From positions 62,001 through 126,000 of the forward strand of contig JAWWNJ010000143.1 in NCBI GenBank assembly GCA_037176885.1: a stretch of 64,000 nucleotides of DNA, written 5' to 3'. The notes beneath the pieces are model-generated. The model was not told the DNA's origin, did no database searches, and saw only the letters and a program-made list of their open reading frames with translations. The position numbers were made by a program, and so were the translations under genes. This DNA comes from Favolaschia claudopus (Eukaryota > Basidiomycota > Agaricomycetes > Agaricales > Mycenaceae). This document shows, one piece after another, positions 42,888-64,000 of the stretch. Numbering within the stretch: position 1 is the first letter of the stretch; each line of letters begins with the position of its first letter.

Positions 42888-42949
42888 ACCCGCTTATGAT
42901 TGCTTAAGTTTTTCCCATTAAAATGTGCGCGAAGCTTAAGCTGCTTAAG
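42888..42949 (+). repeat. Left terminal inverted repeat
   Basis: Begins ACCCGCTTATGATTGCTTAA and ends CTGCTTAAG. It pairs with 44776-44837 on the other strand with four mismatches over 62 bp. The outermost 5 nt (42883-42887) do not match the opposite end. Confidence 0.85.
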
Positions 42950-43191: not shown

Positions 43192-43821
43192 CATGCTAGA
43201 CGAGTGGCTCACGAACAGAGGAATCCCGGGTCTGTTTTCCCTCCTCAACAGCATCCCCATCAAGCCGATGTATTCCACGCACGGGTTATCTTCGTGGTTG
43301 TGGTTATGACCGAATACGTCGCGGACAATACCTTTGAACGTGTAATGTTTTTCAGAGCGCAAAAACAAGACAAGACGGCAGAAAGCATCGAACACATTGA
43401 CGCCGGTCAAAACGAGAGCAACGAGGAAGATGGTGTACCCGTGTCGCGCATGTGATGAGCCAGCATACCTAGCGCGAAATTAATATCAACATGTTGAGAG
43501 CCCGAGGTGATGATGAACACGCACATATCAGGTGTAAGCTTTCGATACACCGAACTAGCCGCACACGGGAGAATAAACGAGGCGTAGAAACCGAAGACGG
43601 CGACTCTGTGCCAGCCGTGATTTAGGGTACGCAGCGTGATGGCTGCAAGTCGCGGGGGCGGGTGTCAGTATACTGCCACAAAGCCATGAGATGGTGAGCT
43701 CACCTGTGGGCAAGAAACCGAAGAACGCAAGAGACGTGAAGACGGAGTGCGTGATAATCAGACTAGGATGGCGGGAGCCGGGTGTTTGGTCGGAGTCTTC
43801 CCAGTCGATGGTGTAGTACTA
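43192..43821 (-). pseudogene. Captured fragment of a polytopic membrane-protein gene (DUF2427/YTP1-like)
   Basis: Reads on the minus strand as at least three exons with proper introns. The first is TIDWEDSDQTPGSRHPSLI then THSVFTSLAFFGFLPT (donor GTGAGC). The second is AITLRTLNHGWHRVAVFGFY, ending YRKLTPDM. The third is YAGSSHARHGYTIFLVALVL, VNVFDAFCRLVLFLRS and YTFKGIVRDVF. Phases match across both introns. The HGWH...YRKLTPDMYAGSSH pattern resembles fungal DUF2427/YTP1-type or cytochrome b561-like membrane proteins. Start and end of the gene are missing. It lies wholly inside the TIR element, so it was captured from the host. Confidence 0.55.
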
Positions 43822-44775
43822 CGAGGGCTGAGTAGTTAGAGCACAAAGTGCGGTGGTTTGGCGTCCCGTTCAACTTGGGTACAGTGGGACAGGTGCAATG
43901 AGCGAGATTGAGATCATAGTGGCGTGTGGCAAGATGCGTTGGTCACGCGAGCAACCTTTGTTTACTTACTTTGATGGCTCTGTTCCGTTTGAGGTCCGAT
44001 CGTCCGATCCGAGTCACGAAGCCACCGTGACACAGAGTGACGATCGCCTTTCTCTCTTTCTCTTTACCTCTGCTTGCTCGACACCATGGTCTACTCATTG
44101 TATGCCACTGGACCGGCTTATCCTCACAATGCATCAAGACCTCATTGCCTCTCGTCGCAAGTTCATGGTTACTGTATCCAGGGATCAAGATCCTCGCCCT
44201 CGAGATCATGATTCACTCGTCTCAGCAGTCAGATTCAGACTCGACGCTCAGTGGCAAGATTGTTGCCGTCTATGATCTCAGTGCCGACATGTGGAAGTTT
44301 TGACTCATCTTGCATCCAGGTCTATTCTAATTACAAGCGCCCCGGATCTATCACCTCTCTCTAGCGGTCCAGTCTAGTGGATTTTCACCCATCCCGTCTC
44401 GACTCTCGAAGGTCAGTGGCCGAAAAGCTGCCTTAAATTAGGATGCCGACGCTTCGTTAGATTTTTCCTTCTCATAGCGCGCCGTTGCATCATTCTTGCG
44501 CAGCAGCTGTATCATGAATGGTTTCTTCCTTGTAAGATCACTTTCAATTTTCCCGCTGATACTGCTGGTTGCTCATTCAGCCAGCTGGAGCCAGCTTAAG
44601 CTGAGGCCGGCTTAAGTTGTGGCCGGCTTAAGCTGCCTGCAGCTTAAGTTGCTGGAGAATTTGATCAATGGTCACTTTTGATCTTCTTACGCTGGCTTAA
44701 GCGGTGACTGTTCATAGTCGCACTCAAGATGTGTATCACATACTGTATATATGTATCCTAGGCGAGCCCAGCCGG

Positions 44776-44837
44776 CTTAAGCAGCTCAAGCTTCGCGCAC
44801 ATTTTAATGCGAAAAACTTAAGCATTCCTAAGCGGGT
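44776..44837 (-). repeat. Right terminal inverted repeat
   Basis: The reverse complement begins ACCCGCTTAGGAATGCTTAA and matches the left TIR at 58 of 62 positions. It is followed by 5 non-matching nt and the TGCTTGT target duplicate. Confidence 0.85.
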
Positions 44838-47266: not shown

Positions 47267-48633
47267 TGAAACGCTGACTATGGGGCTACGGTGGAAATAA
47301 ACCAAGATAATGCACAGAATTTAATCCACACAAAATCCTAATATAAAATCCTAACCACTTCTAATCGACGTGCGAGGTTCGGGGTTCCAGTCCAGTATAG
47401 ACTGTTGCAATCCAACCAATACTAACTTCAAAATATACTAACTCGAGGCTTTCGCGATAGCTCGTTCCGACCGTCCTGGTACTGACTATCCTAGTTTTTG
47501 ACACCGGAAGGTGCGTTTAAACAGGTGATTGAGATGTTTTACTCTTGGTAGAGGTTTAGAGGTTTAAGTTGTGTGTGCTCGTTCGCAAAATGAGTTTCCG
47601 CGGAAAGTATGTTTGGACTGATTCCGTTCTCTCAAAGGTCCGTGTCAGGCTCTTATAATTCCACGCGCTTGTACTAATTCTCAATAAGATGTTCACGCGT
47701 ATAATTCAAGATATGATCCAACAGACAGTATATTGCAACGAAAACAAACAAAAGAAACAAATAAGCTTCTGGAGTTTATCTCGAATGAAGTCCAACGTCT
47801 TGTTATTCACGAAGCCAATACTGGCTTGACGCTCACAACGAGAGGGGGGAATCCACTAGAGCTCCAGTACATGATATAGTGCTTTATATACATTCACAGC
47901 AATAAATATGAGATGACAAACAAACAATCTTATGGGTATAATATTGGTAACCCCGGACCCTCTTGGCCCAGACCTCATTCAGTTTTACTTGTTAAAGGTT
48001 TTCCTCCGGTACTGGTGAGGGATTTACGCCTTTACCTCCGGCATCCGCTAGATACCATTGTTCTACCTCCGGCACCCTCTTGGATACCATTGTTCATCTG
48101 GCTTGGCCAGCGTAGATCTTCCCCGTTTGTACTGATATCTCCGGTCATGAATCAATAGCTCTCTTGCTATCCAATCGATGATCTACTTGCTCCAAGTAGT
48201 ACTGTTTGAATAAGGGATATTCTCTCCCTACAGGTCGCTAGCGATCCTGAGTTATAGCTCCGTCCTAGACCTTTCCGCGGAAGCCTCCTGCTCCTGGTAA
48301 CACCTCTCGAGTTCCAACGAGTCCCAAACGGAATGTCCTTCGATGTACGCCTTTGTTCCTGGAGCACTAGGTAGCTCCCAATCCTATTCCGGATGGTAAG
48401 AGACCTATCGCGGAAGCTCATGTCCGACTTATTGTAACTCTGACACTTTGCAGTGCCATTGTAAACGAACCCCAGAGCTCCCACCTGTGTATTCTCCTTT
48501 GACTGACCGCCCAGGCAGACCTCAGTCCTTATTGAGACCCATTCACTGAGTATTGTAGTACTTTATTAATAGTACTGTTGTAACTAGCCTGAAAATGAAT
48601 AAATTCAGGCGTAGCCCAATACCAGGTCTGTCA
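47267..48633 (-). repeat. 3' LTR, complete (1,367 bp)
   Basis: In element orientation it starts TGACAGACC (48633) and ends CGTTTCA (47267). The inner boundary is fixed by the adjoining purine tract, the outer by the end of identity with the right LTR. The five bases outside are CACGG (47262-47266), the candidate target duplicate. It contains two perfect TTCCGCGGAA palindromes (47596, 48273). Confidence 0.8.
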
Positions 48634-48646
48634 TCTCCCCTTTTCA
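48634..48646 (-). other. Polypurine tract
   Basis: On the minus strand GAAAAGGGGAGA lies directly before the TG of the 3' LTR, as needed for plus-strand DNA priming. A near copy occurs at 53988-54001. Confidence 0.7.
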
Positions 48647-49097
48647 TAAATTGAGTGTCCCCACTCAACCATGTCTTTATCAGGACTCATTTTATCTCTT
48701 TATTCTTGGTGCTTCCCACAATCATTCGGCTATCTCGGATATATTTCCCAATTAGGCGTCCGCCACCTGGAAATTTGGTTCCGTTGATGGACAGCGGGAT
48801 CTTCGCTAAATGACGAGAGATCCCCTATAAAACGTTTCCGCTATTGCCCTTATCCCAGCGCACCTCTGCACCTTTGTTTGCTCGAGAATTTGTAAGTGGT
48901 CCGTGCGTTAGACTGCGGGACACGTGATCCATGTTTGTTTTGCAGCGCTTTCCGCCCACTTTTCTCTTGCTTTCTCCCACAACAACCCGCTACCGCGAAT
49001 ACTCAAGCACTCTCAACTCATATCCTAGGTGCGTGTAGGAGTCATATTGGGGTTCCTGGACTCACGATTCGACCATTTTGACTGTTTCACAGACAAA
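48647..49097 (+). promoter_or_regulatory. Upstream region of the first antisense gene
   Basis: Lies between the 3' LTR and the first plus-strand gene. The start ATTGAGTGTCCCCACTCAACCATG resembles the stretch before the third antisense gene (54001-54030, TTTTAACTGTCCCCAGTTAA): both have a small inverted repeat around TGTCCCCA. CTATAAAACG at 48824 is a good TATA box, about 270 bp before the ATG. Confidence 0.45.
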
Positions 49098-52000
49098 ATG
49101 TCGTCTCCCATCTCCCAATACTTCAGCTTCTTCCAGATGATGTCGGGCACCCTTGTCATGGAGGAACTCTCTGTCGACGAGTACACCCAGGCTCGTAAGG
49201 ATGGCATTCGCGTCATTCCTTACAGGATTAACGATGCCCACGTCGTTAATCATATGTCGCGCCCGTTCATCCCATTGGCTCGCACCGAGCTGATGGATAG
49301 GCCGACGTTTTCTCGCGCGGACTTGGAGTGTTTTATCCTCCTCCAACATATCTCCACTGTGCGCCTGATGCAGTTCATTCGCATCCCATCACACCTTTCA
49401 AGGACCAATCCTACGTACATCGCGCACCTCCTCGAGCAGTTCAAACCCGTTTCGGTAAGCTTCCGCGGAAAGTACCAGCCTTCCATTTCTGGAGTTCTGA
49501 TGTTTACTTTAGCAACTTATCAAACGTTTCTACTGGCAGCTGGAGATTACGCCCGCTTTCGACCGCGTCCTGGTCGGCGTTAGCTCGATAGCGCTGTGGC
49601 TCCAAACCAACTTCTCCGACGTTTGGGCTGAACCGTACGACGTCCTTCCTCAAGGATTTGATATGAACAAGGTCGTTTCGGTATGTCGCTCTTTTACACT
49701 TGTACACTCTTCAGTACTCATTCCTTTAACAGCTCTCCGTCATGGATCAGGGCTTCACTATTCCCGACTCTTTGGAATACTATGCGAGTTTTCCTCGCGA
49801 AGTGTTGAAGCCCAACGCTTTAGAGCACCAGGCCCTTTACAACCTCCGCGACGACCCTTACTTCCCAGCCCTCCTCGAGGCATGCGTCGAGAACGCCAGT
49901 TCGGCGGCTGGAGCGGATGTGAGAACGCCGCTCCCCGACTCCCGTCGTTCCAGTATTCGCCGGCTAATCAACAGTTCGGTCATGACTCTGGTAAGAAGCC
50001 CTTTTTTCCAACTAGCTGTACTTCAACTTATGAATTCCACGAAGCGGTTGGCGAGGTCGAGGACCGACCTTTCGCGGATGCCGTCCTCACTTCCGTCGTC
50101 TTATTGGCGTCACGGATTCCTGAGGACGAGCGTCCCAAGGCTTGGGACCGAGCTATTCCTATCCCCACTCGCCAGCACCTTCTTATCCCAATTTTCTTTT
50201 CATACCCGACTTCCGAATTCGTCCCTCCAGGCCAGTTTCTTCCTTGGTGCCAAGTCGGCCAGGAGGACCCTGTGGAAGACGCGTGGCGTCACCACAACCC
50301 TCCTGATTCGCCTGCTAGCCCTACTGGTTCAGGTCTCCAAACGCCACAGGTCGCACCGTCTACACCAGCAATCGCGGAAACTCCCCGCGCTGGTCCTAGC
50401 GCTTTATCCGGTTCAGGGATACCTGGTAGCGGGCTTTCTTTTGGAACGCCTGGTCCAGCGCTTTCTCCTCCGAAGCCAGCGGTATCCACACCGTCTGTTT
50501 CTCACCCCGTAGATGCCTCAGCCGCATCTATTTTAGAAGGTATAAGTCGTTTCTCTCCAGTTCCAAACTGGTATCGTTCCGATGGACCTCCGCTTATTAT
50601 TTCTCCAGGGAAGACCGTTATTCCATCCACTGGGAACGCGGAATCCGGTCCATCGGGCGAGGGGAACGCTTCCGCGGAAGATCCTTTCGTGGATCCTACG
50701 CCCGCCTCCTCTGCTACTGCGGCGCTGGTCATGGCCGCGCTTACTTTATCAACCCAAACGGTACCTAGCGCAAGTCCTCCGGGGCCCGCATCGCCCATTC
50801 AGGTCGATCCTCCCCAACCCGAGCCTGAGTCGAGTGCTCCTGAGCTTCCCACTAACGAGATATATGCTCATGGTGGTGGAGGCGGGGGAGGAGGCGCTGG
50901 TTTTTATGTAGACGTGCCCTCTGCGCCTCCAGCTGCTCCGTCTGTAAGTGCCCTTTCTCTTAACACTTTTCCATTACTGACTTAGATCTTTTTGTAGTCC
51001 AGAGGTCGTTCCGCGTCTCGCTCACGTGGTCGCGGTAACCGCGGTACTTCCGTCGCAACCCGTCGGAGCACCCGTGCCAAGACCAAGGTACGTTATAATT
51101 ACTTCTTTCTCTTTGGAATATTTCCTTATTCAGCCTAATTAGCCTGACCACTCTCTTGAGGCGGCCGCGACTGGTATCGAACCAGAGGAATCTTCCGCGG
51201 AAACCAAGTCCAAGCGCCTCTCAAAGCGTCGCCGCGAGGAACTCGAAGAAGCCGACGACGAGGAGTCTAGTTCTGACGAAGACGGCGAACCTGAGGTCTC
51301 CCCGCCACCTAAACGTCGCAAGGTCTCCCAAAAGGCTTCCGCGAAAGGTAAGGGGAGGGCGCAATCCGAGCCGTCGGACGACGGGTACGTGTCGCACGTC
51401 CCCAAACTTGTCAAGAAGACTCGCGGGGTGTCTCAAAAGAACAAGGAGGACCCCTACGTCCCCAACTTCGATCCTGTCATCTTCGACCAGGAGTTCGCCA
51501 CCATTGCGATGAACAAACTCGAGACAGACTTCCGCACCCTGTTCAAGAACGGAAATAATGTCTTGGTGCGTCTTCCTTTAGTCTACTTCTATCTTCTCGT
51601 TTTCCTCATTCTTTTCTCTAGCAATTAGCGGGCTGCGGGAATTGTATCCTCCGCAATCGCAAGTGCCATAGGTCCAAGTACAACAAGGACTGCCGTTCCT
51701 GCAAACGGGGAAAACTGTCTCATTGCTCGCACAAGTTCACCCAGATGGACGTCATCCGGATGATCGAAGGCTTCGCGCCGATTACCGCTTTCTCCAATGC
51801 TAGTACGTCTATTTATTCTTCTTATTCTGGGTATCTCTTATATCCGCGTCTTCTCTCCCTAGACTGGAATCGCGTCTTTACTGAGTTGGTAGAGGCGCGC
51901 CAGATGCAACTCGTGAGCCATGCTCAGTACACCGTCGCCAACCGCCGACTCTTTCGTGCGCGGGACGCGCTTCTGACACTCATGGATGGCTACTCTGCCG

Positions 52001-52416
52001 CCATGGGTAAGGAAGCCGTCCCTACCATCGCTGGTGTGGAGGATCTCGAGGACCCAGACAAGTTTGTCTTCCACGAGGTTTACCAGAACTGGCAACAGGG
52101 GCTGCGGAGGGGCTATTGGATGGAGGACGGTCACCGCGCCGATGAATACTACGACATGGTGGACTCCGAGGACTCGGAGGACGAAGCTGTCGCTCGTTTC
52201 CGCGAGGACAACCCCGATATGGACACTGATGCTCAACCTGACATGGATGTTGATACTCAACAAACCATCCTTGAGTCTTTGGATACCGCTCCTCCAGGTA
52301 AGCTCTTTATTTCCCTTGATTTTCAGGAAATTGACGCTTCCGCGGAAGGTTCTCTTCTTCCTCCCGCTCCGTCTGCTCCCGTGGCTGGCCCGTCCAAGCC
52401 TCGTGCTAATCCGTAA
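49098..52416 (+). CDS. Element-borne antisense gene 1: large protein with Zn2Cys6-like cluster
   Basis: Eight exons: 49098-49454, 49513-49680, 49733-49918, 49954-50943, 50998-51087, 51143-51565, 51622-51802 and 51863-52416. Phases all close, giving 982 aa. The N-terminus (to about 235) is an ordered region (YWQLEITPAFDRVLVGVSSI). It is followed by a long Pro/Ser/Ala linker, a Gly run, an Arg-rich SRGRSASRSRGRGNRG stretch and a KR/acidic segment with NLS-like KRLSKRRRE and PPKRRKV. At about 743-774 is CGNCILRNRKC, eight residues, CRSCKRGKLSHC. This is C-x2-C-x6-C-x8-C-x2-C-x7-C, close to a fungal Zn2Cys6 cluster. A helical region and acidic tail follow. It lies antisense to the retroelement. 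Function unknown; nuclear DNA binding is an inference. Confidence 0.72.
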
Positions 52417-52810
52417 TTAGTCCCCTTTTTCATTGCTATTCACTCGCTGATCCGCTTTTCTTAGATAATTTCAGTAAACGTCTATTTTCGCGAACACTTG
52501 CAATGCTTCCACTTAGATACCACTTGTATCTGATTCTCTTTCAATTTCTTTTTACTACTCTTGTACCTTTGAATAGTCGCAATGTGATCTCGCTATCCTG
52601 CTCCTACCTCGTGTGACCTGAGCAATTCAAGCAACAGACTACCGTCTTTTCCTCGTGGCTGGTTTATCTCCGTCTGATAAGCCATTGTCCAGAGTTATCG
52701 ATATAGGCCGGCTCTTTCGCACCGGGCTCCTATATCGGGAATTTTCCCACAGAAACTCTATTTAAGAGGCTTCCGCGATTACTTGGATTTCCAGCTTGTC
52801 TTTTACCACT

Positions 52811-53552
52811 ATGTCGGACGTAGCTCCTGCTCTCCCTCTCCTTCTTGGAACTGCGACGGATGACGACTTTCCTATCCTATCGCCTTATTCCTATCGGGTT
52901 TTTCCCAGCCTTGCTGGTCGCGAACGACTTCTCTCATTGGCGAGTCCCCTCTTCTCTGTCCACTTCGTATTCCTTATCCCATTATTCAGAACCCTGTTCA
53001 ACGACCGCTCGACGTTGTCATTAAAGACAGCTGCCGTCGTTCCAACAGTTTCGTTCAGTGGGGAATCCCTTGTTTGACCTGCGTTGCTGCTGGTACCAGC
53101 ACTGCTTGTTCCTTTTGCAGTCGCTTGGCCTTTGTCGAACTCTTGGAGAGCGAAAGGCTTCAAATCGAGCGTCTAGCTATGCAAGATCCTGTCGATCCTG
53201 GTGCGTTTTGCTTATTTCTTAGCAACCGCGGAAGCTCAATTCAGCCCTTTTCTCAGCTTTTGCCTATGCTAGGGAAGAGGCCACGTTCTTCGCCAGCTGC
53301 CATGCAGCTTTCCGCAAGTTCGACTCGCGCGCATCTCCTTGGAGAAACCCCCGTATCTCCCTTCTTAGCCAGGTCGATGCTATTGTTGACGAGCATCGCC
53401 TCAGCTACCTCGCTGGTCTTTTCCCTTTCTATAACTTTCCAGTCGAAGTTCAGACTGTCGTTCATACTAAGCTTAACGCTTTCTCCGCTGTTAACGCCTT
53501 TCTCAGAACTGAACTAGCGATTGACGAGTTCCACAAGCTCTCCTTAGCTTGA
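52811..53552 (+). CDS. Element-borne antisense gene 2: small Cys-containing protein
   Basis: Three exons, 52811-52939, 52990-53200 and 53245-53552, giving 215 aa. The first intron would be GC-AG (GCGAGT...TTCAG, 50 nt); without it the frame closes early in VSFSGESLV. Exon 2 gives NPVQRPLDVVI then WGIPCLTC, eight residues and CSFC, a compact C-x2-C-x8-C-x2-C pattern. Pairs of this kind are common in agaricomycete proteins of unknown role near transposons. Exon 3 is alpha-helical (LFSAFAYAREEATFFASCHA, VDAIVDEHRLSYLAGLFPFY). Preceded by a 394-bp spacer after gene 1 on the same strand. No known family. Confidence 0.6.
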
Positions 53553-54052
53553 ATTAGCTTATGGTCTTAGGCTTAGTTTACTTAGTAACGTTCCTTAGGC
53601 ACTTTTGTCCTCGTGGAATCAATTACTCCTTTAAGACCCATAATCTATCGATTTATTGAGCAATCGCGAAAGCTATCTTTCACTTTCTATTCATGCCCGC
53701 TCTTGGCCATGACCAATTACTCCTTTTATCCATATTCCCGCGCCCGTGTTTCTGTCGTTAAGTCATAGTCCCGACGGCTGGTGCGGTCCTCATGGGAATT
53801 TCCCCTTTTAGACTGAAGCCCGGACGATCTATCACGACTTCATCCACATCTTTTGGAGTTAAATCCGAGAACAATGGATTCTTGTTGCGCTATTTTTGCT
53901 GTCTTCAATTCTCCCATTGTTCTCTTCTCCTTTTGTATCTCCGGAATGTCTTGGTAAATTGTTGCGTCAGGGCCTTTGTACTATATTCCTCCCCTTTTCA
54001 TAGATTTTAACTGTCCCCAGTTAATTTCTTCGAGCGAGAGTCGTACTTCAAT

Positions 54053-55686
54053 ATGGCGCCCACTGCTACAGTACCGACGTATAAAACCTTCCTGTATTAT
54101 ACGCCTTTTACCAGTACATTCGCTGAATACCCCACACTCCTTAACATGGCTCCTCGCGCTTCTCTTACAAAAGCCCAGCATGATGCTATATTGGGCGTCG
54201 CCGACATTGTTTCGGCAACCAAATACCCCGACCGCAATAAGCAGCGCGCCTTCCTTGATCAGCAGGCTGTGACCTTGGTAAATTCCGTATTTGGACTTTC
54301 CGCGGATGCTCTGACCTGGATTTTTCAGGAAGCGTTTGCACCTCTTATCGGCGAAATCGCCAAGGACAAAGCTCTCTACGACGCTTTCTATAGTGTCAAG
54401 AACAGCTACCACCAAAGCGCTGTCGGCGCAAATGGTGTAATTGGCGGGCGCTATCCCGTTATCCTTGATCTCTGTGCCAAGATCAGGAGTGAGCGCGAAC
54501 TCCTTCGTGCTAACGTCGTTGCTGGCCAGCAGGCGCATCGTACAGAGCTGGAAGATGCTCGTGCGCAGGCGGAGGACCAAGAGTCTCGCACATCTCGCAA
54601 GTCCAAGGCCACTCCCAAACCTCGCGTACGTTATTGCCTCTCTCCTCATCTCTCGCCTGATTATGCCTATTTTAGAAGGAGCCCAAGGCCAAGAAGTCTA
54701 AGGCCATTATTGAAGACGGAGATGAATCTCCTTTCGATGATTCTGAGTTGCCCGCTGAGCACGACGATGCTATGGTCGTCGACGACTCAGTGAGTTCTCC
54801 AACTCCTTTCTCTCCGTTTTTCTAATTGGGACTTACAGAATGACGCAGGTCCTTCAGGCCATCGGTCGACTCAATCTCTCGACGACCGTAACAGTGCGGT
54901 GAGTCCAACTTTGACTTTCCGCGAATGCTACCCATTGTCGTTATTATTGTTGACTTCTTCCCCTAGAGTCAATCCCAACCCGGAAGTACGCGTCCTTCAT
55001 CGGTACGCCTTTCCTTCCTTCGCATGAAAGGCCTTGACCGAGGAGCGCCCCAATATCTTAAGGCTATGGCAATTCTCGCTTGTACTGACCCTCAATCAGC
55101 GTCAGGCCCCGTCGTCGAGGACTTCCCAGTTCCGCCCCCACGAAAACGGGCTCGGCCATCGCAAAACTTCGCCCACGAAGACTCTGCAGACCAATACGCA
55201 GGTGAGTTAGCTTCCGCGATTGCTATTTATACTTAATTCTAACAATCGTTTAGCCACAGACTTATCGGTTAACAATGAAGCAGTCCGCCAAACTGTTACC
55301 GAAGCACGCAACGCCGTCAAGGGCGCCCCGGCCGATTCGATCGGTTCCCTTCGTCTCCAAGAAGCGGACCTCCGGTCCCGCGTCGGGTTCGAGAATGCCC
55401 AACTTCGATACCACCTCGAGCATCGCGAGTACCTCCTCACCGACCTTCGGCAGGTTCTCGACGCTCAACACACGCGCGAACAACCTCCAGCAGCAGCAAA
55501 CACCCAGCCAGCGTCGCAGGTAAGCCATGTTTTAGCTTCCGCGGAAAATCCCTGACTTAATTTCTCAGTGATTCTCTAGCCGAACTCGCCGAGCGCGATC
55601 TGGATGCCTTCTTTGGAATCCAGCGCCCCACTGCAGAATGTCCCCATTGCGCTAGCCATACCCATCCTTCTACTTCTTGCTTTTAG
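54053..55686 (+). CDS. Element-borne antisense gene 3: helical protein with nuclear-type linker
   Basis: Exons 54053-54625, 54676-54789, 54839-54898, 54967-55201 and 55254-55519, with phases closing, plus an unresolved last exon. Met-32 (54146, MAPRASLTKAQ) is an alternative start. The N-terminal 190 aa are helical (DALTWIFQEAFAPLIGEIAK, ELLRANVVAGQQAHRTELED). A Lys-rich/acidic segment follows (KEPKAKKSKAI, then DDSELPAEHDDAMVVDD) and PPPRKRARP, which is NLS-like. The region EAVRQTVTEARNAV through RYHLEHREYLLTDLRQVLDA looks like a coiled coil. After a good intron (GTAAGC, branch CTGAC, CTCAG) the expected phase gives an immediate stop. Another frame to 55686 would give ECPHCASHTHPSTSC, a zinc-knuckle-like end. 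The 3' end is therefore uncertain. No known family. Confidence 0.6.
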
Positions 55687-55808
55687 GGTTATGTCTTTCC
55701 CTTAGCTTATACCACACTCCTTAGTCCAACTCGCCGTCTGTCTTTACTCTTTTCCAACTTAGCGTCACTTCTTTGTAACCGCTATTTCACGCTCCTTCAA
55801 TCAACGTT

Positions 55809-56255
55809 TTATGTGGCTTTATTCCTCCTTGACCGCCTTGGTTCCTCTTTATAGGAAGTCTCTTTCCTTATTTCGTCTAAGTCCAAATCAGGAACTTCAT
55901 CACTTTCGTAACCATCCGACTCTGATTCCTCGGAGTGTTCTTTAGTTTCCGCGGAAGGCTCCAATTGATTACTAAGACGAATTTTATGGAATTGTAAGTC
56001 CTTCCCTAGGAATGGGTCCTTATCAGCGTCATCCTCAGCCATTTCATCAAGCGTCTCCTGCGACAAGTCGATGAGATCCAGTATATTATCTGGGAGCTGT
56101 ATCGCCTGTCTTTGTTCGAAAGGTATCACTCTGAACTGAGCAATTCTTCCTTGTAACATAGAACCATCCAGCTCGCAGAGCAGATACGCTCCCCCCTTTG
56201 TACGGCGCACCACAATGTACGGCCCTAAATATCTAGGATCCATTTTACTATTCAA
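55809..56255 (-). CDS. Integrase C-terminal GPY/F module and tail, separate frame
   Basis: The frame is open from about 56303 down to 55809. It carries MDPRYLGPYIVVRRTKGGAY and LLCELDGSMLQGRIAQFRVI, the GPY/F module that follows the integrase core in many Ty3/Gypsy elements. It ends in an acidic then basic tail (EEPRRSRRNKAT). It is in a different frame from the preceding integrase ORF; the change of frame lies in the TTTAAA run at 56301-56306. This looks like a single-base deletion, or else a recoding site. Confidence 0.72.
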   Translation of the reverse strand: MNSKMDPRYLGPYIVVRRTKGGAYLLCELDGSMLQGRIAQFRVIPFEQRQAIQLPDNILDLIDLSQETLDEMAEDDADKDPFLGKDLQFHKIRLSNQLEPSAETKEHSEESESDGYESDEVPDLDLDEIRKETSYKEEPRRSRRNKAT

Positions 56256-56281
56256 AGACTTCTCTGTCTCTGTGTTCCTTA

Positions 56282-59227
56282 CTAGAACAAGTGCCCCTGG
56301 TTTAAATCGAAATCCTTTATGGTGTTTTTATGGATATCAATATACCGCCGCACTAACTTCCTCTTTTCATCGCTAACACGGATTCTCATTTCCTCTACGT
56401 GCTGAGAATGTTTTGCAAGGGCTTTAGCCCTTAAACCAATGAGTTCTGCAGTGGTAATAGGTTCACCAGGGTATTCAACAAGCCAAGTCGCTTCTTCCAC
56501 ATCAAGAGGTAGGATGGGATGGGCTCCTGAAACCGCAAAGAAAGGGGAACAACCCATTCCTTTCCTTATAGTTATTCTATCCGCCCACAATACCTGGTGC
56601 AAGAACCAGTACCATTTCTTAGTATCACCTCCCGTTGCTTTGTATAACGACTGCCTCAAGTCCCAATGCCCCCTCTCTACAGGACCATTAGCTTGGGAAT
56701 TATAAGGAGATATCTTTATTCCTCTAATCCCGTATTTAGACGCTAGCCATTTTAGAGCAGCCACAAATGCTGGTCCATTGTCGGTGACTATTGTCTCTGG
56801 ACATCCCCATCTACAAATGACTTCCTCCAATAGGAATTTCCCAATGGATTCTGTGTTCTCTGACCGCAAAGGTCTCCCTTCGACATACCGCGAAAGCGAA
56901 TCTCTTGCCGCGACAACATTCCTATACCCGTTGGATACTACTCCCATGACCATAGCGTCTGCATGTACTTTTTGGAACAAGCTTGGAGTATGCGTAGGTT
57001 TTGGTGGGATCCTAAGTAAGGTCTTTTGTCGATGTTGGCATATCTTGCAAGTATCTATGAACCATTTAACGTCTCTTTCCATTTCTGGCCACCAGAAACG
57101 CAGTTCTAATAGAGACTTGGTTGCAAATATGCCCTTGTGACCCAAGGAATTATGTGCCGCTCTCATCATGTACATTCTATGCTCTTTCGCGATTACTAGC
57201 TTATGCATAGAACCTTCCCCTCTACGGTATAACTTTCCTTCTTTACTCAAGAAGAAATATCTCGCGAACTTCATGAACCTTTTGAAGTCCTTATTGACCA
57301 TCATCCCTTCTGGCCTAACCATGGGATTCTTGAGCCATACTTTTACTAGCTCAATCCGCTCGTCCTGCGCTATTCCCGCACCTGTACGATGCTCCTCTGG
57401 GTAAGGCTCTCGTTTATCTGGACTATCTCTGAATTCTCTGCTTGGTAGCTGGGGTTCTGTAGGCTCCGCAACGTTCACATTAATGTATTGAGGCACTACT
57501 AGTCCTTCTCCAACGTATACCTCCTTTACCCGGTCGGAAATCAGTTTTTCCTGAACTTCCGCGGAAAGTAGTTCCTCCGCGAATTCATCAATGCTGCTTG
57601 CTGTGCCAGCCATAGACTGCAGGTATCCACCCCTTTCGTCTATTTCGTCTTTGAATTCGTCAAAATCCAAGGGCTGCTCACAGTTATAGTCCCAATCTTC
57701 ATGGTTCCCAGGAATCGGGTTCTCATCCAAACCTTCTTCATTGTTCGGGAATTCTTCATCCCCTGGCTGGGCTTCTCGTCTAGAGAGACCATCAGGAGGG
57801 AAAGTGGCTCCTTTTACGTGTTTCAACTTGAAATGGAACATTAGGATTTGTTCAATCCAACGGTTGATCGTGGCATTCGGGCCCATACCGGGGTTGTTCA
57901 ACATTCCTTTGATATACAGCGCATCAGTTTCCACGACTAGCCTCCTGCACCCTAGCAGCCAGTACTGCATTGCTTCCAAGGCCCTCTTTAGCCCATACAA
58001 TTCCCTCTTGGGTTGTGAAAACCTGGATTCTCGCCTGTTGAGTGTGATTGAGGCAAACTTTGCGTAATGCCGTTTCAACTTATCAATTATATCTATCTGA
58101 TATATTTGAATCCCAACAGCCATCCAAGAAGTGTCGACCGCGAGAACTATGTCCGTATCCCAGTCGTAATTTAGCGGACGTAGGGCTGGACAAGTCCTCA
58201 CCGCATGCTTTACTGCCTCCATGGCTGCCTCTTGTTCAGGTCCCCAAACGAACTCTTCATCGTTTCGAGTTAACTTCGCAATAGGCCTACTCATATCTCC
58301 AAATCCCTTTATAAACATCCGCAGCACTCCAACTACTCCAAGGAATTGCCTAACTCCAGAAACATCCTTGAGGGGCCCCCAACGGATAATGACACCAACT
58401 CTATCCGTACTGGGACGACGGCCTTCGTAAGAGCAGATATGTCCTACTACTGGGAATACATCCCAGCATAGTACTGACTTGGCTCCTGAAAAAGTTCCCC
58501 CGCAATATTTAATTCTTTGAACTATTCTGTTCAAATTCTGAAAGTGTTCCCAGACAAATCTCCTTATCCCTGAGTTTTCGCGGATGGTCTCATACGTCCC
58601 ATGTTTATTCTGATACCTTGTACCAGGCCCTCTTATAGGTACATCATCAATGTAGGGTATAGTTACATGTGGGATCTCATCTCTTAAGATGAAAGTCACA
58701 TCATCGTGGAATATAGGAACCGAATTCGTCCAACCTTGGGGTAGCTTTACCAAACGCAGAGCCCCGTAAGGAGTTTGGAACGTCGTGTAGTCCCTTGAAC
58801 CTTCCGCGATATCCCTGTGATCATAACCTGAATAGAGATCTAAACTGGCACCCCAGGCTCTTCCCGCGAAATGATTAGCCAATTCGTCTGTGGCTGGTGG
58901 AACCCCAGAGTGAGCGATGGTTACTGCATTTAAGGGCTCCAACGCGTGGACTAATCGGATACTCTTTCCATCTTTCTTCACAACTCCAAAGAACTTGCTC
59001 CTGTAGGAAGCGTTCGATGGTTCATAGACTCCAGCGTCTATCTTCTTCTTTATTACTTTGCAGAACTCTTCCAATTGTCCTCTTGGGATTGGAATACTTC
59101 TTTCTACCCATGTCTCATGTTCTACTACAGGAAATTCAACTGGCGGGAAGAAATCATGCCTGAAACTGCCCCTTTCGGAATCATCCCAAGCGAAGGCTTG
59201 TTCCTGTCTCATCATGAATTCATGCAT
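56282..59227 (-). CDS. Gypsy pol: reverse transcriptase, RNase H, integrase core
   Basis: 981 aa from the first in-frame Met; the frame is open to about 59300 (RKAIIDELHDGDFLWPEERK). RT: SIPIPRGQLEEFCKVIKKKI, first catalytic Asp in LDLYSGYDH, LPQGWTNS and PYIDDVP at about 190-195 (YxDD form). RNase H: LAVDTSWMAVGI near 363, RELYGLKRALEAM and VVETDALYIKGM. Integrase: HH-CC zinc motif (HNSLGHKG...CKICQ, about 687-727), then DDE residues in HADAMV, TDNGPAFVAA (about 810) and NGPVERGHWD (about 849). It copies element RNA and inserts the cDNA. Catalytic residues look intact. The C-terminal GPY/F part is out of frame downstream. Confidence 0.9.
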   Translation of the reverse strand: MHEFMMRQEQAFAWDDSERGSFRHDFFPPVEFPVVEHETWVERSIPIPRGQLEEFCKVIKKKIDAGVYEPSNASYRSKFFGVVKKDGKSIRLVHALEPLNAVTIAHSGVPPATDELANHFAGRAWGASLDLYSGYDHRDIAEGSRDYTTFQTPYGALRLVKLPQGWTNSVPIFHDDVTFILRDEIPHVTIPYIDDVPIRGPGTRYQNKHGTYETIRENSGIRRFVWEHFQNLNRIVQRIKYCGGTFSGAKSVLCWDVFPVVGHICSYEGRRPSTDRVGVIIRWGPLKDVSGVRQFLGVVGVLRMFIKGFGDMSRPIAKLTRNDEEFVWGPEQEAAMEAVKHAVRTCPALRPLNYDWDTDIVLAVDTSWMAVGIQIYQIDIIDKLKRHYAKFASITLNRRESRFSQPKRELYGLKRALEAMQYWLLGCRRLVVETDALYIKGMLNNPGMGPNATINRWIEQILMFHFKLKHVKGATFPPDGLSRREAQPGDEEFPNNEEGLDENPIPGNHEDWDYNCEQPLDFDEFKDEIDERGGYLQSMAGTASSIDEFAEELLSAEVQEKLISDRVKEVYVGEGLVVPQYINVNVAEPTEPQLPSREFRDSPDKREPYPEEHRTGAGIAQDERIELVKVWLKNPMVRPEGMMVNKDFKRFMKFARYFFLSKEGKLYRRGEGSMHKLVIAKEHRMYMMRAAHNSLGHKGIFATKSLLELRFWWPEMERDVKWFIDTCKICQHRQKTLLRIPPKPTHTPSLFQKVHADAMVMGVVSNGYRNVVAARDSLSRYVEGRPLRSENTESIGKFLLEEVICRWGCPETIVTDNGPAFVAALKWLASKYGIRGIKISPYNSQANGPVERGHWDLRQSLYKATGGDTKKWYWFLHQVLWADRITIRKGMGCSPFFAVSGAHPILPLDVEEATWLVEYPGEPITTAELIGLRAKALAKHSQHVEEMRIRVSDEKRKLVRRYIDIHKNTIKDFDLNQGHLF

Positions 59228-59273
59228 TAATTTCCTCTCTTCAGGCCATAAGAAATCCCCATCATGTAGCTCA

Positions 59274-59927
59274 TCAATGATAGCTTTTCTCTCCTCCCCC
59301 TGGTACTGGGTTTAGCTCTGGCATTTCTGCTAACGGATCACCTATGATTTCCCGTTTTATCCTGAATTTCTCAGGTAGCTCAGTATATACCGGACGAATT
59401 TTCAACCCTACTGGCTTGTACTTCTTGCCAGCGTACACAGAAACAGGATCATCTTGATCCTCCTCATCTTCCGCGGAAGGTGGCTCCTCCGATATTTCTT
59501 GAGAAAGAGTCGGATGAATGAACTCCGCTGAGTCGCAACAGGGACAATGAACTCCCTGATTTAGAACATGCATAGTTCTAACTTCATTCCGAGTATACCG
59601 TGGTGCAGGAGGGATAAATTCCCCAGGTTTATTCTTCCCTTTTCCTGACTCTACGGGCCCTTCCCTCATACTCCAAGTGAAAACTCCGTATGGCTTTCGC
59701 TTTACTGGCGTCTTTTTAGACTTTTCGCGGAATTCATTGAACAAGACTCTAGCTTTCTTGTCTTTCCGCATGTTCCTCGCCCCTGTAGAGGCGCTAACAT
59801 ACGCCTCAAGAACCTCTGTCTCCGAGAATGCCAATCCCTTTGGCTTATAATATCCTTCAATCTCCAGTTCTTTATCTTTATTAAAGCCGAATTTCAACGC
59901 CAACTCTCCTCGTTCATGCAGTTGCAT
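59274..59927 (-). CDS. Gypsy pol linker ORF (between protease and RT)
   Basis: 217 aa. Its ATG overlaps the stop of the protease ORF by one base (TAATG at 59929-59925), a termination-reinitiation arrangement. The protein is basic in the middle (KKTPVKRKPYGVFTWSMREG) with a CPCCDS motif, then acidic (SAEDEEDQDDPVSVY). It ends VYTELPEKFRIKREIIGDPL, which resembles the segment before RT in related fungal elements. It then leaves frame at a GGGGG run near 59305, after which the RT frame begins. Probably part of the pol polyprotein rather than an independent protein. Confidence 0.6.
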   Translation of the reverse strand: MQLHERGELALKFGFNKDKELEIEGYYKPKGLAFSETEVLEAYVSASTGARNMRKDKKARVLFNEFREKSKKTPVKRKPYGVFTWSMREGPVESGKGKNKPGEFIPPAPRYTRNEVRTMHVLNQGVHCPCCDSAEFIHPTLSQEISEEPPSAEDEEDQDDPVSVYAGKKYKPVGLKIRPVYTELPEKFRIKREIIGDPLAEMPELNPVPGGGEKSYH

Positions 59928-61147
59928 TAAGTCCTCGAAGTTTGACGAAAACCCTGCTTCGATTCTGGGTCAGCAGTCTTTTCTGGACGCTCATCTTCCT
60001 CTTCGACCGTCACAGTAGGCTTCCGCGATTGCTCTGTTTCCTTTCCTCTTTGAATAGTGGTCAGGGTGCAACGCTTGCCGGTGTTTGGATCTCTGATTGT
60101 GATGGTCTGGGATTCGTCTCGACTATTGTTGACTTGGCATTCTGTTAATACCTCAAACGGTCGACCCAGTAGCACTTTATACGCCGGTCCTTTTATAATG
60201 TGGACTTGCAGGTACACTGTTATGTCTCCGAATTTGAAAGGCACATTCCTTGCTAAGCCAACAGCTCTCTCCATGGTACTATTGGCGCTCTGCATCCACA
60301 CTCTTACATCCGGATCCCAGCTAAGTTTTAACTGAACCGCTTGTTCAAGAGACATGGACACAATTTGGGAGCCAGAGTCTAATACACACTCTACCCGCCC
60401 TTGTTTATTTATGGACGGAAATAGTACTCGTAGATTAGCCGAGTCTCTTCCCACGGTTGAATTCCGCGGATCCATGTATACCTGTTTAGGTTTTTCATCA
60501 GGACTCAGGGACTCTAAGTACTGAACAAATGGATCTGGAATTGATACCGCTCCTTCCGGTAATTCATCCGTTTCAATCGTATTGACATACACAGAGGAAA
60601 TTTTCGGAAGTTCATCCAGGTTGAGTGCGTCATACTCCAGGCTTTCTTCTTCCTCGTCTGGGAAGGGTAGGTCTAGTTCTTCTTCGAACATAACCTGTTT
60701 AGCTCCCGGAGCTTTCACTACTCTCCTTATCTTTGTGAAGTCGCGTTTGAGAGTCTCCCTAACTTCTGGAGAAACCCCAACTAGGTCTTTGACACCCAAG
60801 GTGACTTCCGAGTTCAGAACAGCATCCGCGATTGCTCTTCCCAGTCCATCTTTTTGTACTGGAGCTTTCAGCTGGTATGCCTTCTCTTCCACTTCTTTAG
60901 CCTCTTTAATCTCCTCAACGTCCTGGTCTCTCTGCCGGTTTACCACTGGTTTGACCTGCCTATATGGGAGTTCAACACCAACAGCAATCTCCCGCCTTGG
61001 TCTCGGTTCTTCCTTTTCCCAGGCCTGAGACCTTTCTACTTCATTGGCAGCCCTTGCCCTCCAATCTTTACTTTTGTCCGCGGAACTTTTATCGGTACGG
61101 TCCTCAGGAGGCTTTTCTAATTGTTTGGTCCGCGAGATTGCCTCCAT
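59927..61147 (-). CDS. Gypsy aspartic protease ORF
   Basis: 406 aa. A charged N-terminal region (EEIKEAKEVEEKAYQLK) precedes the retropepsin domain. The domain is marked by VECVLDSGSQIVSMS near residue 254 (catalytic DSG), then VWMQSANST, GDITVYLQVHI and VLLGRPFEVL, the usual hydrophobic-hydrophobic-G-R flap end. It processes the Gag and Pol polyproteins. The first Met (61147) lies 12 nt after the gag stop and in another frame, so it is expressed by frameshift or reinitiation. Its stop overlaps the ATG of the next ORF. Confidence 0.78.
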   Translation of the reverse strand: MEAISRTKQLEKPPEDRTDKSSADKSKDWRARAANEVERSQAWEKEEPRPRREIAVGVELPYRQVKPVVNRQRDQDVEEIKEAKEVEEKAYQLKAPVQKDGLGRAIADAVLNSEVTLGVKDLVGVSPEVRETLKRDFTKIRRVVKAPGAKQVMFEEELDLPFPDEEEESLEYDALNLDELPKISSVYVNTIETDELPEGAVSIPDPFVQYLESLSPDEKPKQVYMDPRNSTVGRDSANLRVLFPSINKQGRVECVLDSGSQIVSMSLEQAVQLKLSWDPDVRVWMQSANSTMERAVGLARNVPFKFGDITVYLQVHIIKGPAYKVLLGRPFEVLTECQVNNSRDESQTITIRDPNTGKRCTLTTIQRGKETEQSRKPTVTVEEEDERPEKTADPESKQGFRQTSRT

Positions 61148-61158
61148 CCCTGAACCCT

Positions 61159-63075
61159 TTAGAAATTTGAAGGCGAACCTCCCCCTTGTCTGGACACATT
61201 CCTAGTAACCGCAAACTGTTCTTGTGGCTGAGCATCCACAGCACTTAGTCCTTTCAACAGTAACGCATGTAATGCGTTAGTCAAATCGGCCTGGCTGGCG
61301 GCTGGTTGAGCAGCCGCGATTGGTTGCATCTGTGCCATAAAAGTGGGTTGAACCACTTGGTTAGCCTGGTGAGTTTGTTGGATCTGATTATACTGCTCAG
61401 CTCTCCTGAGCCGTACTTTCAGAGTCTTTATCTCATCAGCTTGAAGCTCAGGGTCATAATGACTCCCTTCTCCTTCGCCGTTATAGTAGGAGTCTACTAC
61501 ATTCCAGTTTTGGCTAGTAGACTTACTCTTCCAATAGTTCTCTACTCGAACTTTCTGGCTACTGGTTCCGGAAGGAATCCAGTTTCCATCTCCTAGCTTA
61601 TGCTTCCCATTTTCAACCACTAAGTGTCCCTTTTGAATGTGCTCATCTTTATACGGACACTCACGAGAGTAATGCCCGGCTTCTTCGCAGTAAAAACATT
61701 CTCTATCGTTTTCGCGGAAGCTCCGTCTCTCATTTCTTTCTGGCCCTCCAGCCTTCTGACTAGGGCCTTGAGAATTGTAGGCGAAACTGGAACGGTTGTA
61801 GTCCCTGTTCCCACCAAAGTGAGGCGGAGGATCCTTTGTGAGTTGTTGCATCGACTTGAGCAACTCGTTATGCCTTTCGTCGTACGTCTTTTGAGTTAGA
61901 GAGTACTGGTCCCTTAATTGGGCTATAGCACCTTCTATGATCTCAAATTTCTCGTCCAACGGCTCGTTCTTCACAACAGTGTTAGGCGGAGCAAGATGTA
62001 CCCCAGGAGTAATCCTAGTTTCCTGCTCAATCGTCACACTTGGTGCTTCATGTTCGTTTGCGGCCAACATTTCCGCCAATTGGATAAGATCTTCCAACTC
62101 TATTGGATCTTCTTTCCTTGCGTCTGGCTTAGCTGCTTCCGCGCCAGCTGCTGCTGCAGCTGGTTTCTTTGCCAGATTTGGAAATTGTGCTTTCATTAAT
62201 ACAGAATTCGCGATTGCTACTTCTAGTATAGATTTAAAAGCTGCTTCCAGAGTATCAAGATACTGCTTGCAAGCTACTTGGTTGGTTAACAATGCCGGTG
62301 CTTTGTACAACTTTTTAACCTCTGTGAGATATTCTAAGTTGAACCGTCGAAGTTTCCCTTCCTCGTACACCGTAATTCCTCTATTACGCTTGCAGAGTCT
62401 CTTAAGATTTTCAACGGTCCCTGCTCGGTCCGTTTTTATCTCAGGGTAGCTCCTGTATACTTCAGCCAAAAAGTCATCGTATGACCCAGTTGAATATGTC
62501 GCAAGAGACCTCCACTGCTCTTTCTTTTTAGCACTGAGATAATTCGTCAGATGGACCTTCCGCGTTTGGTCCTCTGTTATTCCAGCCAATTCTAGGATTT
62601 GACCTACGTGATCGATGAAGGTCTTTAGATCCTCATAGTCCTCAGTCGTGAACTTAGGTGCGTTAGAGTCCCACGCATATGGAACTTTGAAACTAGCGAC
62701 CTTAGGTCCTTGATTTTGGTTTTGGTTTGGATCAGCCATCGTACTAGTCGATGGTTGAGAAGGTAAGGTTTGTGAAAAGGTAGGAGAAGTAGGAGAAGGG
62801 GTTTTATCCTCTTCTTCTTCTTCTGATAAGGTTTGTGAAGCCGTCTGACTTTCCGCGATAGCTTTCTGCTTCGACTTAAATGCTGTAACCCTGGCTTTTG
62901 TTCTAGCCTTAGACTGAGCTCTGCCGGCTTCAGTCGCACTACTCCTTTTCTTTTTAGGAAGAGGAGATAGATTAACTGGTGTTTTCAACCGACTAGACCT
63001 CCGCACTCTGGGTCTTTCAAACGAAGTGGAAGCAAGTTCACCGTCCGCAGATATTTCTTCCGACTCTGGTTGCAC
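61159..63075 (-). CDS. Gypsy Gag
   Basis: 638 aa. The N-terminal 110 residues are basic and low complexity (RRSSRLKTPVNLSPLPKKKR). The capsid-like domain follows (KVASFKVPYAWDSNAPKFTT, DYEDLKTFIDHVGQILELAG, YLSAKKKEQWRSLATY), similar to the retrotransposon gag family. At about 456-470 is the zinc knuckle CFYCEEAGHYSREC (C-x2-C-x4-H-x4-C), which binds RNA. The end is Gln-rich (IQQTHQANQVVQ). It forms the particle in which reverse transcription occurs. The start at 63075 is the first Met of the frame; about 180 nt of leader separate it from the PBS. Confidence 0.85.
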   Translation of the reverse strand: MQPESEEISADGELASTSFERPRVRRSSRLKTPVNLSPLPKKKRSSATEAGRAQSKARTKARVTAFKSKQKAIAESQTASQTLSEEEEEDKTPSPTSPTFSQTLPSQPSTSTMADPNQNQNQGPKVASFKVPYAWDSNAPKFTTEDYEDLKTFIDHVGQILELAGITEDQTRKVHLTNYLSAKKKEQWRSLATYSTGSYDDFLAEVYRSYPEIKTDRAGTVENLKRLCKRNRGITVYEEGKLRRFNLEYLTEVKKLYKAPALLTNQVACKQYLDTLEAAFKSILEVAIANSVLMKAQFPNLAKKPAAAAAGAEAAKPDARKEDPIELEDLIQLAEMLAANEHEAPSVTIEQETRITPGVHLAPPNTVVKNEPLDEKFEIIEGAIAQLRDQYSLTQKTYDERHNELLKSMQQLTKDPPPHFGGNRDYNRSSFAYNSQGPSQKAGGPERNERRSFRENDRECFYCEEAGHYSRECPYKDEHIQKGHLVVENGKHKLGDGNWIPSGTSSQKVRVENYWKSKSTSQNWNVVDSYYNGEGEGSHYDPELQADEIKTLKVRLRRAEQYNQIQQTHQANQVVQPTFMAQMQPIAAAQPAASQADLTNALHALLLKGLSAVDAQPQEQFAVTRNVSRQGGGSPSNF

Positions 63076-63252
63076 CGAAATGTTGAACTATGTCAACGGT
63101 GCTTTTTAGGCTTTTAACGAAATTCGTTCTTCCTGGAATAGTTCCAAGGTATAATCCTGTTATAGGAAGTGTAGGAAGACTAGTTCAGAACTAAGCAGTT
63201 CCAACGAGAGTACGAAGTTCTCTACTTTGAACTAGTAATTGGTCAAATGAAC

Positions 63253-63270
63253 CCCTCGCGGTGGGCTCCA
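63253..63270 (-). other. Primer binding site
   Basis: On the minus strand TGGAGCCCACCGCGAGGG lies two bases after the CA end of the 5' LTR. It starts with TGG, complementary to a tRNA CCA end. Which tRNA has the 3' end ...CGCGGTGGGCTCCA cannot be decided from the window. Confidence 0.7.
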
Positions 63271-63272
63271 GA

Positions 63273-64000
63273 TGAAACGCTGACTATGGGGCTACGGTGG
63301 AAATAAACCAAGATAATGCACAGAATTTAATCCACACAAAATCCTAATATAAAATCCTAACCACTTCTAATCGACGTGCGAGGTTCGGGGTTCCAGTCCA
63401 GTATAGACTGTTGCAATCCAACCAATACTAACTTCAAAATATACTAACTCGAGGCTTTCGCGATAGCTCGTTCCGACCGTCCTGGTACTGACTATCCTAG
63501 TTTTTGACACAGGAAGGTGCGTTTAAACAGGTGATTGAGATGTTTTACTCTTGGTAGAGGTTTAGAGGTTTAAGTTGTGTGTGCTCGTTCGCAAAATGAG
63601 TTTCCGCGGAAAGTATGTTTGGACTGATTCCGTTCTCTCAAAGGTCCGTGTCAGGCTCTTATAATTCCACGCGCTTGTACTAATTCTCAATAAGATGTTC
63701 ACGCGTATAATTCAAGATATGATCCAACAGACAGTATATTGCAACGAAAACAAACAAAAGAAACAAATAAGCTTCTGGAGTTTATCTCGAATGAAGTCCA
63801 ACGTCTTGTTATTCACGAAGCCAATACTGGCTTGACGCTCACAACGAGAGGGGGGAATCCACTAGAGCTCCAGTACATGATATAGTGCTTTATATACATT
63901 CACAGCAATAAATATGAGATGACAAACAAACAATCTTATGGGTATAATATTGGTAACCCCGGACCCTCTTGGCCCAGACCTCATTCAGTTTTACTTGTTA
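63273..64000 (-). repeat. 5' LTR, partial (cut by window end)
   Basis: The 728 bases are colinear with 47267-47994 without gaps. The only difference seen is 63511 (A) versus 47505 (C). The remaining roughly 640 bp should lie beyond the window. Confidence 0.88.

Follow-up and report, generated by a model that had tools for sequence, protein, structure and literature searches.

A selected palindrome spread along a Ty3/gypsy-like retrotransposon of Favolaschia claudopus and its candidate zinc-cluster reader

Introduction

Why should a single short palindrome recur along the whole length of a retrotransposon, in its long terminal repeats (LTRs), introns, spacers, and coding exons alike, and be absent in its perfect form from the adjoining host DNA? 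This question is raised by a stretch of 64,000 nucleotides (nt) of the Favolaschia claudopus genome (C143:62001-126000, referred to here as the window), the right end of which is occupied by a Ty3/gypsy-like LTR retrotransposon that bears additional genes in antisense orientation to gag-pol. An initial annotation of the window had reported eleven perfect copies of TTCCGCGGAA within the element, and had proposed a cis-code read along its length, like the short motifs bound by the anti-silencing proteins of some plant transposons. The evidence assembled here somewhat favors the view that the palindrome is a selected binding site, read by the product of the first of the antisense genes (gene 1), which would keep the copies of the element open in the manner of the plant VANC proteins. 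All whole-genome counts refer to the 264.6 Mb assembly of this species.

Density, shape, and spacing of the palindrome

All eleven perfect copies of TTCCGCGGAA were recovered at the annotated starts, and none occurs in the host flank (1..47266). Those at 47596 and 63602 represent a single LTR site counted twice, at an offset of 16,006, so there are ten independent perfect sites. The element has 18 perfect palindromes of 10 bp in all, and TTCCGCGGAA makes up 10 of them. The near variants described in the annotation also exist, 0-3 nt from the positions assigned to them, and the window contains 20 matches with at most one mismatch to TTCCGCGGAA, of which the host part accounts for 3; the expected number is 2.57, and the largest value in 100 shuffles was 8. 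When the flanks of the 89 CGCG words of the element are aligned, TTCCGCGGAA emerges as the center of an imperfect palindrome of 16 bp, AGCWWYCGCGRWWGCT; the flanks of the 222 CGCG words in the host part are flat, without any pattern.

The 16,006 nt of the element contain 34 instances of the degenerate form of the motif, WWYCGCGRWW, and the 47,266 nt of the host part contain 4, which is far from the equal density in host sequence that would have spoken against a cis-code. Markov models based on 2- to 5-mers yielded means of only 0.9-6.3 sites, with a maximum of 13 (200 runs each). The sites are also regularly placed, at a mean distance of 467 nt (about one per 470 bases; smallest gap 133, largest 1,019), with a coefficient of variation of 0.515 versus 0.96 for random placement, and none of 20,000 simulations was as even.

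The reported spread through the LTR, intron, spacers, and exons of both strands was borne out, with two sites in each LTR, and coding bias does not explain it, given that the four gag-pol open reading frames (ORFs) hold 13 sites, in all three frames, against a mean of 0.65 and a maximum of 4 in 1000 synonymous shuffles. In the genome as a whole, TTCCGCGGAA occurs 584 times, compared with 166 for the reversed control. The first 15 genomic places that were fetched (L001-L015) contain only 1-2 motif sites per 3 kb, including the seeding site, so most of the genome-wide excess is, as far as seen, not of the dense kind, and a word that is dense throughout the host is disfavored.

Retention of the sites among copies of family A

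The family of the window copy (family A) was compared through a second copy, 89-92% alike (L048 + L017), which covers 30 of the 34 sites. The motif is present in both copies at 27 of these 30 sites; three sites are found in the window copy only, and two in the other copy only. Letter-for-letter identity was observed at 23 of the 30 sites, but at only 17 of 49 other CGCG-centered 10-mers (p 0.0004), and the CGCG itself is kept in 27 of 30 versus 29 of 49 (p 0.004). Of 60 ten-mers lying 25 nt away from a site, on one side or the other, 30 are identical (p 0.02 versus the sites). The loss of the motif at the neutral rate, which the annotation had named as grounds for abandoning its proposal, is thus not what the diverged copies reveal. 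In the eight copies designated A2, the 13 site columns comprise nine without any loss, three intact in seven copies, and one intact in six, which adds little because these copies are 99% alike. Taken from these alignments, the motif sites resist divergence and are kept by selection.

Concerted shift in family B and absence from family C

A 3-kb pol query returned 40 scored places among 596 candidates, comprising the window itself and eight further copies at 93% identity, together with 16 family B copies (75-76%) and 15 family C copies (71-72%); 30 of the 40, including that of the window, were fetched. The number of motif sites per 6 kb is 12-13 in the A copies, 4-7 in the 16 B loci, and one in each of five C loci, with nearly all those of the B loci, among the words listed, being TCGCGA. 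Homologous sites have shifted alike between families A and B, which are 74% alike, from TTTCGCGGAA to TTTCGCGAAA, TACCGCGAAA to TATCGCGATA, TTTCGCGGAT to TATCGCGAAT, and TTCCGCGATT to TTTCGCGATT.

This shift was counted in the alignable part (55,800-60,800) against one B copy (L028), with three A sites before 55,800 being omitted because the two families do not align there. Six of the ten A sites keep CGCG in place, seven have TCGCGA within 6 nt, and three are lost, while none of seven other CGCG words was retained. At the outer positions of the motif, A has C/G in 44 of 68 cases (34 sites), whereas B has it in 0 of 24 (12 sites), with p 4e-9 for sites that are non-independent. As read from these alignments, the change from A to B has the pattern of a recognition code moving as a whole.

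For family C, the word AGTCGAG was considered as an alternative motif, with 17 occurrences in 12.6 kb versus 0.12-0.2 per kb in A, B, and the host, although six of its eight sites are identical between two C copies, which is the background rate, so it is a weak candidate only. Two further words, AATATTAT and CAGCTGA, were discarded as family C motifs, being located mostly inside a nested DNA transposon. This transposon (L047:2277-7159) has 1,038-nt inverted repeats (96%), the arms of which repeat CAGCTGA and AATATTAT, and is inserted in a family C retrotransposon.

Gene 1, the candidate reader

The consensus of the Zn(II)2Cys6 cluster is CX2CX6CX5-12CX2CX6-8C. Gene 1 (49098..52416, plus strand), antisense to gag-pol, is the candidate reader of the motif, with eight predicted exons and 972 aa according to its splice borders and translation: exons 1-4 at 49098-49454, 49513-49680, 49733-49990, and 50056-50943, and exons 5-8 at 50998-51087, 51143-51565, 51622-51802, and 51863-52416. 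A deposited protein of 947 aa (P0001) is 96% identical to its product, with some exon borders being different. Exon 7 (51622..51802) begins with six cysteines spaced CX2CX6CX8CX2CX7C, a Zn2Cys6-like cluster with a basic RNRK run ahead of the third cysteine, and this spacing, which fits the consensus, recurs in families A, B, D, and F. The cluster reads CGNCILRNRKC..CRSCKRGKLSHC in A and CGNCMIRNRKC..CDACVQSGMSRC in B, with the same spacing and RNRK. Gene 1 is present in family C too, where the cluster (CLPCLQSSRDDC) is one residue longer, with the third cysteine shifted and without the basic run.

Between A copies, the protein encoded by exon 7 is 96.7% identical at a DNA identity of 83.4%, versus 80-91% protein identity at 80-88% DNA identity in the seven other exons, which makes exon 7, in sequence terms, the best conserved exon of gene 1. 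Two protein searches with gene 1 found Favolaschia proteins alone (four and three matches, with the approximately 8,000 candidates sharing most words being scored), and a search with pieces of the family C gene 1 found nothing at E 0.001. A PDB sequence search with the cluster exon returned weak matches to unrelated proteins alone (best E 0.2).

A second Zn2Cys6-like cluster is present in a gene 2-like ORF of family C (L047:1169-1288; Pfam Zn_clus E 0.0029, below the cut-off), and this ORF may, to judge from its sequence, encode the DNA-binding protein of that family.

Covariation of the cluster and the motif

The N-domain of gene 1 was found at 111 genomic places with the B query and 70 with the C query. 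Between families D and B, the N-domain has only 38-40% identity, versus 85-90% in the cluster exon. The genome contains 213 copies of the B-type 14-mer GCAATCGCGAAAGC and none of its reversed control; the 14-mer was paired with gene 1 in the first 100 of its places listed, from -3 to +14.5 kb of the gene. Among these places, the 14-mer lies near gene 1 in eight of nine B copies, two of three B-like copies, all eight D copies, both F copies, and four of five A copies, compared with none of 19 C copies, neither of two E copies, and not the one unassigned copy. The copy at C12:2757042 was grouped as B-like because it is 52% identical to B. The neighborhood of gene 1 accounts for 49 of the 100 listed places, and the remainder may be solo LTRs. 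The type of cluster thus follows the motif: B and D have the same cluster type and motif, A departs from them in each, and C has a changed cluster and lacks the motif.

Two observations on individual copies belong here. In L050 and L052 (families D and F), the intron that precedes exon 7 contains the B motif in the form GCATTCGTGATAGC, in which the CGCG core has undergone one CpG transition. In the copy at G000:C49:506538-508969, the N-domain is 63% identical to that of family C and the cluster exon 100%, which suggests an exchange of the DNA-binding exon between lineages.

Preferred explanation and known systems

The sequences and their covariation point to a gene 1 product that would bind the palindrome as a dimer, with a Zn2Cys6-type protein occupying two abutting half-sites, which would be CCG.CGG in family A and TCG.CGA in family B. 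The protein would coat all copies, including the LTRs, and keep them open and transcribable, as plant VANC proteins do, and the site and reader of each family would drift together, so that the protein would act on its own family. The coverage of the whole element, rather than of the promoter alone, argues for a role in chromatin, as for VANC; the anti-silencing effect itself is proposed by analogy.

The VANDAL elements are Mu-like DNA transposons, and VANC is not known to be a Zn2Cys6 protein. The targets of VANC are tandem repeats confined to non-coding DNA, while the 34 sites described here are at least 133 nt apart and include exons. The present element has LTRs, reverse transcriptase, RNase H, and integrase, rather than the structure of a Mu-like DNA transposon, and as an LTR element with no tandem arrays and with sites in exons, it is therefore not a VANC system by membership. 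The likeness lies elsewhere. In Arabidopsis, VANC binds short motifs and methylation is lost throughout the VANDAL elements (PMC5735166); that account describes an element-borne gene, a short motif enriched in its own family, related families that have related proteins and different motifs, and a protein with conserved and fast-changing parts. The enrichment of a family's own motif, with a different one in related families, is likewise found here, given that A and B differ and C lacks the motif. The loss of methylation was measured in that system, whereas an anti-silencing effect is proposed for the present one.

Zinc-cluster proteins typically bind CGG repeats, and the Zn2Cys6 protein Pdr1 binds TCCGCGGA (PMC8211738). 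The 8-bp core, the class of cysteine cluster, and the abutting CCG/CGG half-sites are shared with Pdr1/Pdr3 and their pleiotropic drug response element (PDRE) (PMC8211738, PMC5082525), although these proteins are host regulators that act on drug pumps at promoters, whereas the gene considered here belongs to a retroelement and its candidate sites extend over 16 kb. The Zn2Cys6 factor AflR has the palindromic site TCGN5CGA (PMC9031554), so half-sites of the TCG/CGA kind, which family B would require, are within the reach of zinc clusters. The half-sites of AflR are 5 nt apart, whereas those of the element abut. The CCGCGG of family A and the TCGCGA of family B would fit abutting half-sites of the Pdr1 and AflR kinds, respectively.

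An additional antisense ORF between pol and the 3' LTR is reportedly also present in the fungal element Boty, as brtn. The plant elements Grande, RIRE2, and Retand carry extra genes in this same position, again opposite in orientation to gag-pol, and some antisense products of plant LTR retrotransposons are nuclear, with a function described as unknown (PMC7264820). The available text of that source mentions no cognate motif, whereas a DNA-binding type and candidate sites can be proposed here. A self-protective role, against silencing or mutation, has also been proposed for fungal DNA transposons with TET/JBP dioxygenases, although in that case the agent is an enzyme, on DNA transposons, with none reported on retrotransposons in the part of the source available (PMC12730594).

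A number of results weigh against the preferred explanation. The ratio of CpG to other transitions among the copies is 1.20 in A2, 1.90 in B, and 0.89 in C, and CpG transitions were found in 14 of the 21 lost site cells of family B; these transitions are therefore not rarer in the families with the motif, and provide no sign of protection from methylation. The Pfam Zn_clus profile matches the family B cluster at E 0.018 (15.5 bits, below the cut-off of 21), and does not match that of family A even at E 10. Five of the seven proteins found (P0001, P0002, and P0005-P0007) nevertheless have the UniRef name Zn(2)-C6, with P0003 and P0004 being uncharacterized, and the cluster is therefore referred to as Zn2Cys6-like. 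The AlphaFold model of the 60-residue cluster exon has a mean confidence score (pLDDT) of 56, too poor for judging the fold, and gene 1 has further parts besides the cluster. Given that families A, B, D, and F share ancestry, the covariation comprises just two independent contrasts (A versus B, and C), and it draws on the clusters of families A, B, D, and F and of a minority of the C copies. In addition, a cluster at C8:1687127-1687303 that is 44% identical to that of B has the same RNRK loop (CGNCMIRNRKC), and no strict 14-mer was found near it, in a list that is complete for that contig.

The alternative that survives best, albeit an unlikely one overall, is that gene 1 reads the motif for other ends, such as activation of transcription from the LTRs and antisense promoters, nuclear retention of complementary DNA, the steering of integration, or the limitation of copy number. 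Transcriptional self-activation is a serious rival among these, in view of the two sites per LTR, the status of zinc-cluster proteins as transcription regulators, several of them autoregulating (PMC5082525), and the lack of support for anti-silencing from the CpG transitions, although an even spread over 16 kb, coding exons included, exceeds the needs of a promoter. It is improbable that the reader is a zinc-cluster transcription factor of the host, one whose site is PDRE-like, and for which the element collects sites: TCCGCGGA is the Pdr1 site (PMC8211738) and the LTRs contain the motif, but the motif varies by element family inside one host, tracking the element's own cluster exon, and family-specific variants would not be expected from a single factor. 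That small palindromic insertions have spread without function, or that mutation is biased, is very improbable, for while the unit is a short palindrome and some copies have flanking letters in common, the homologous sites kept in the two families align gap-free, one 3-nt shift excepted, and change letter by letter, and are retained above other CGCG words. Selection on the protein or RNA, on a Ser-Ala-Glu peptide or a splicing signal, for example, can practically be dismissed: several exon sites do read SAE or IAE, but the sites occupy three frames, ORFs of both strands, the LTR, intron, and spacers, a perfect site is its own reverse complement, and the synonymous shuffles disfavor it.

The binding of a selected palindrome by gene 1, as a means of keeping copies open, thus continues to be the preferred explanation. 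The observation made in the initial annotation was real and strong, and its interpretation was right in kind, albeit partly supported: the DNA-level cis-code is upheld by the shuffles, the diverged copies, the shift in family B, and the bare host flank, while the suggested likeness to the anti-silencing motifs of plants gains a candidate reader. The broadest form of the proposal, a lineage of fungal LTR retrotransposons with a self-recognition code, in which coevolving pairs of zinc-cluster reader and palindrome hold the element open against silencing, is a possibility to which we would give slightly less than an even chance. If true, this would be a VANC-like system of independent origin, in another kingdom, transposon class, and protein fold, and a function would be gained for the antisense extra ORF, which here encodes a recognizable type of DNA-binding cluster, as judged by its cysteines, with candidate sites at hand. 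If the anti-silencing effect is true, sequence-specific self-protection would have evolved at least twice, and the family-specific pairs of reader and site within one genome would represent a natural series on change in zinc-cluster specificity. In the literature searched, which included few subscription journals, no paper matched all the terms for any of three subjects: zinc clusters encoded by retrotransposons, anti-silencers of the Zn2Cys6 type, and the transposons of Favolaschia.

Structure of the element and position of the sites

The order of LTR, gag, protease, reverse transcriptase, RNase H, and integrase is that of a Ty3/gypsy retrotransposon. The LTRs start at 47267 and 63273 and form a direct repeat at an offset of 16,006, with one mismatch in 728 comparable bases. 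The left LTR (47267..47994; 3' relative to gag-pol) is at least 728 nt long, since the right copy (63273..64000; 5' relative to gag-pol) is cut by the end of the window. On the reverse strand of 63250-63272, adjoining the right LTR, TGGAGCCCACCGCGAGG is a likely primer-binding site. On the minus strand are gag, with a CCHC zinc knuckle (61159..63087; Pfam zf-CCHC), the aspartic protease region (59927..61201; gag-asp_proteas, DUF4100), and pol, with reverse transcriptase, RNase H, and integrase (56282..59311), in which RT_RNaseH, Integrase_H2C2, and rve score above the cut-off, and RVT_1 slightly below it (27.3 bits, cut-off 29.6). The plus-strand genes are located between pol and the 3' LTR, and six plus-strand ORFs had no match in Pfam at E 0.1. 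In addition to gene 1, these genes are the Cys-rich gene 2 (52811..53552, approximate borders; ORF 52864-53517, with a weak match in family C) and gene 3 (54053..55687, approximate borders; ORF 54011-54793, with matches in A2 and C), which ends in a Cys/His-rich tail. The antisense layout recurs across the copies, and all nine A contigs found with pol also match gene 1.

In the left LTR, the sites are TTTCGCGATA (47450..47459) and a perfect TTCCGCGGAA (47596..47605), the right LTR copies of which are at 63456..63465 (offset 16006) and 63602..63611. Between this LTR and gene 1 are a perfect site (48273..48282) and TATCGCGGAA (48406..48415), followed by TACCGCGAAT (48991..49000) before the gene. 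Gene 1 has a perfect site in intron 1 (49461..49470), then TTTCGCGGAT (50070..50079, not kept in the A2 copy), AATCGCGGAA (50370..50379), and a perfect site (50670..50679) in exon 4, AACCGCGGTA in exon 5 (51037..51046, not kept in the A2 copy), a perfect site (51193..51202) and TTCCGCGAAA (51337..51346) in exon 6, and a perfect site in exon 8 (52338..52347). Spacers hold TTCCGCGATT (52771..52780) and AATCGCGAAA (53662..53671), the gene 2 region holds AACCGCGGAA (53224..53233), and the gene 3 region TTCCGCGGAT (54298..54307), TTCCGCGAAT (54917..54926), TTCCGCGATT (55212..55221), and a perfect site (55537..55546).

At the downstream end of the pol side, a perfect site (55947..55956) has a TCGCGA site 3 nt off in family B. 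Within pol are TACCGCGAAA (56886..56895), TTTCGCGATT (57185..57194; TTTCGCGACA in B), a perfect site (57557..57566, not kept in B), TTTCGCGGAT (58576..58585), and TTCCGCGATA (58802..58811, not kept in B), with the B counterparts of the first and fourth being TATCGCGATA and TATCGCGAAT. The ORF at 59274-59969 contains a perfect site (59469..59478; TGTCGCGATA in B) and TTTCGCGGAA (59723..59732; TTTCGCGAAA in B), and that at 59927-61201 contains TTCCGCGATT (60021..60030; TTTCGCGATT in B), TTCCGCGGAT (60462..60471, not kept in A2 or B), and ATCCGCGATT (60824..60833). The gag ORF has TTTCGCGGAA (61710..61719), ATTCGCGATT (62206..62215), and TTCCGCGATA (62851..62860).

Elsewhere in the window, a putative DNA transposon (42888-44837) with 62-nt inverted ends (94% complementary) has GCTTAAGC palindromes clustered just inside both ends, and is thus another element with a short palindrome of its own.

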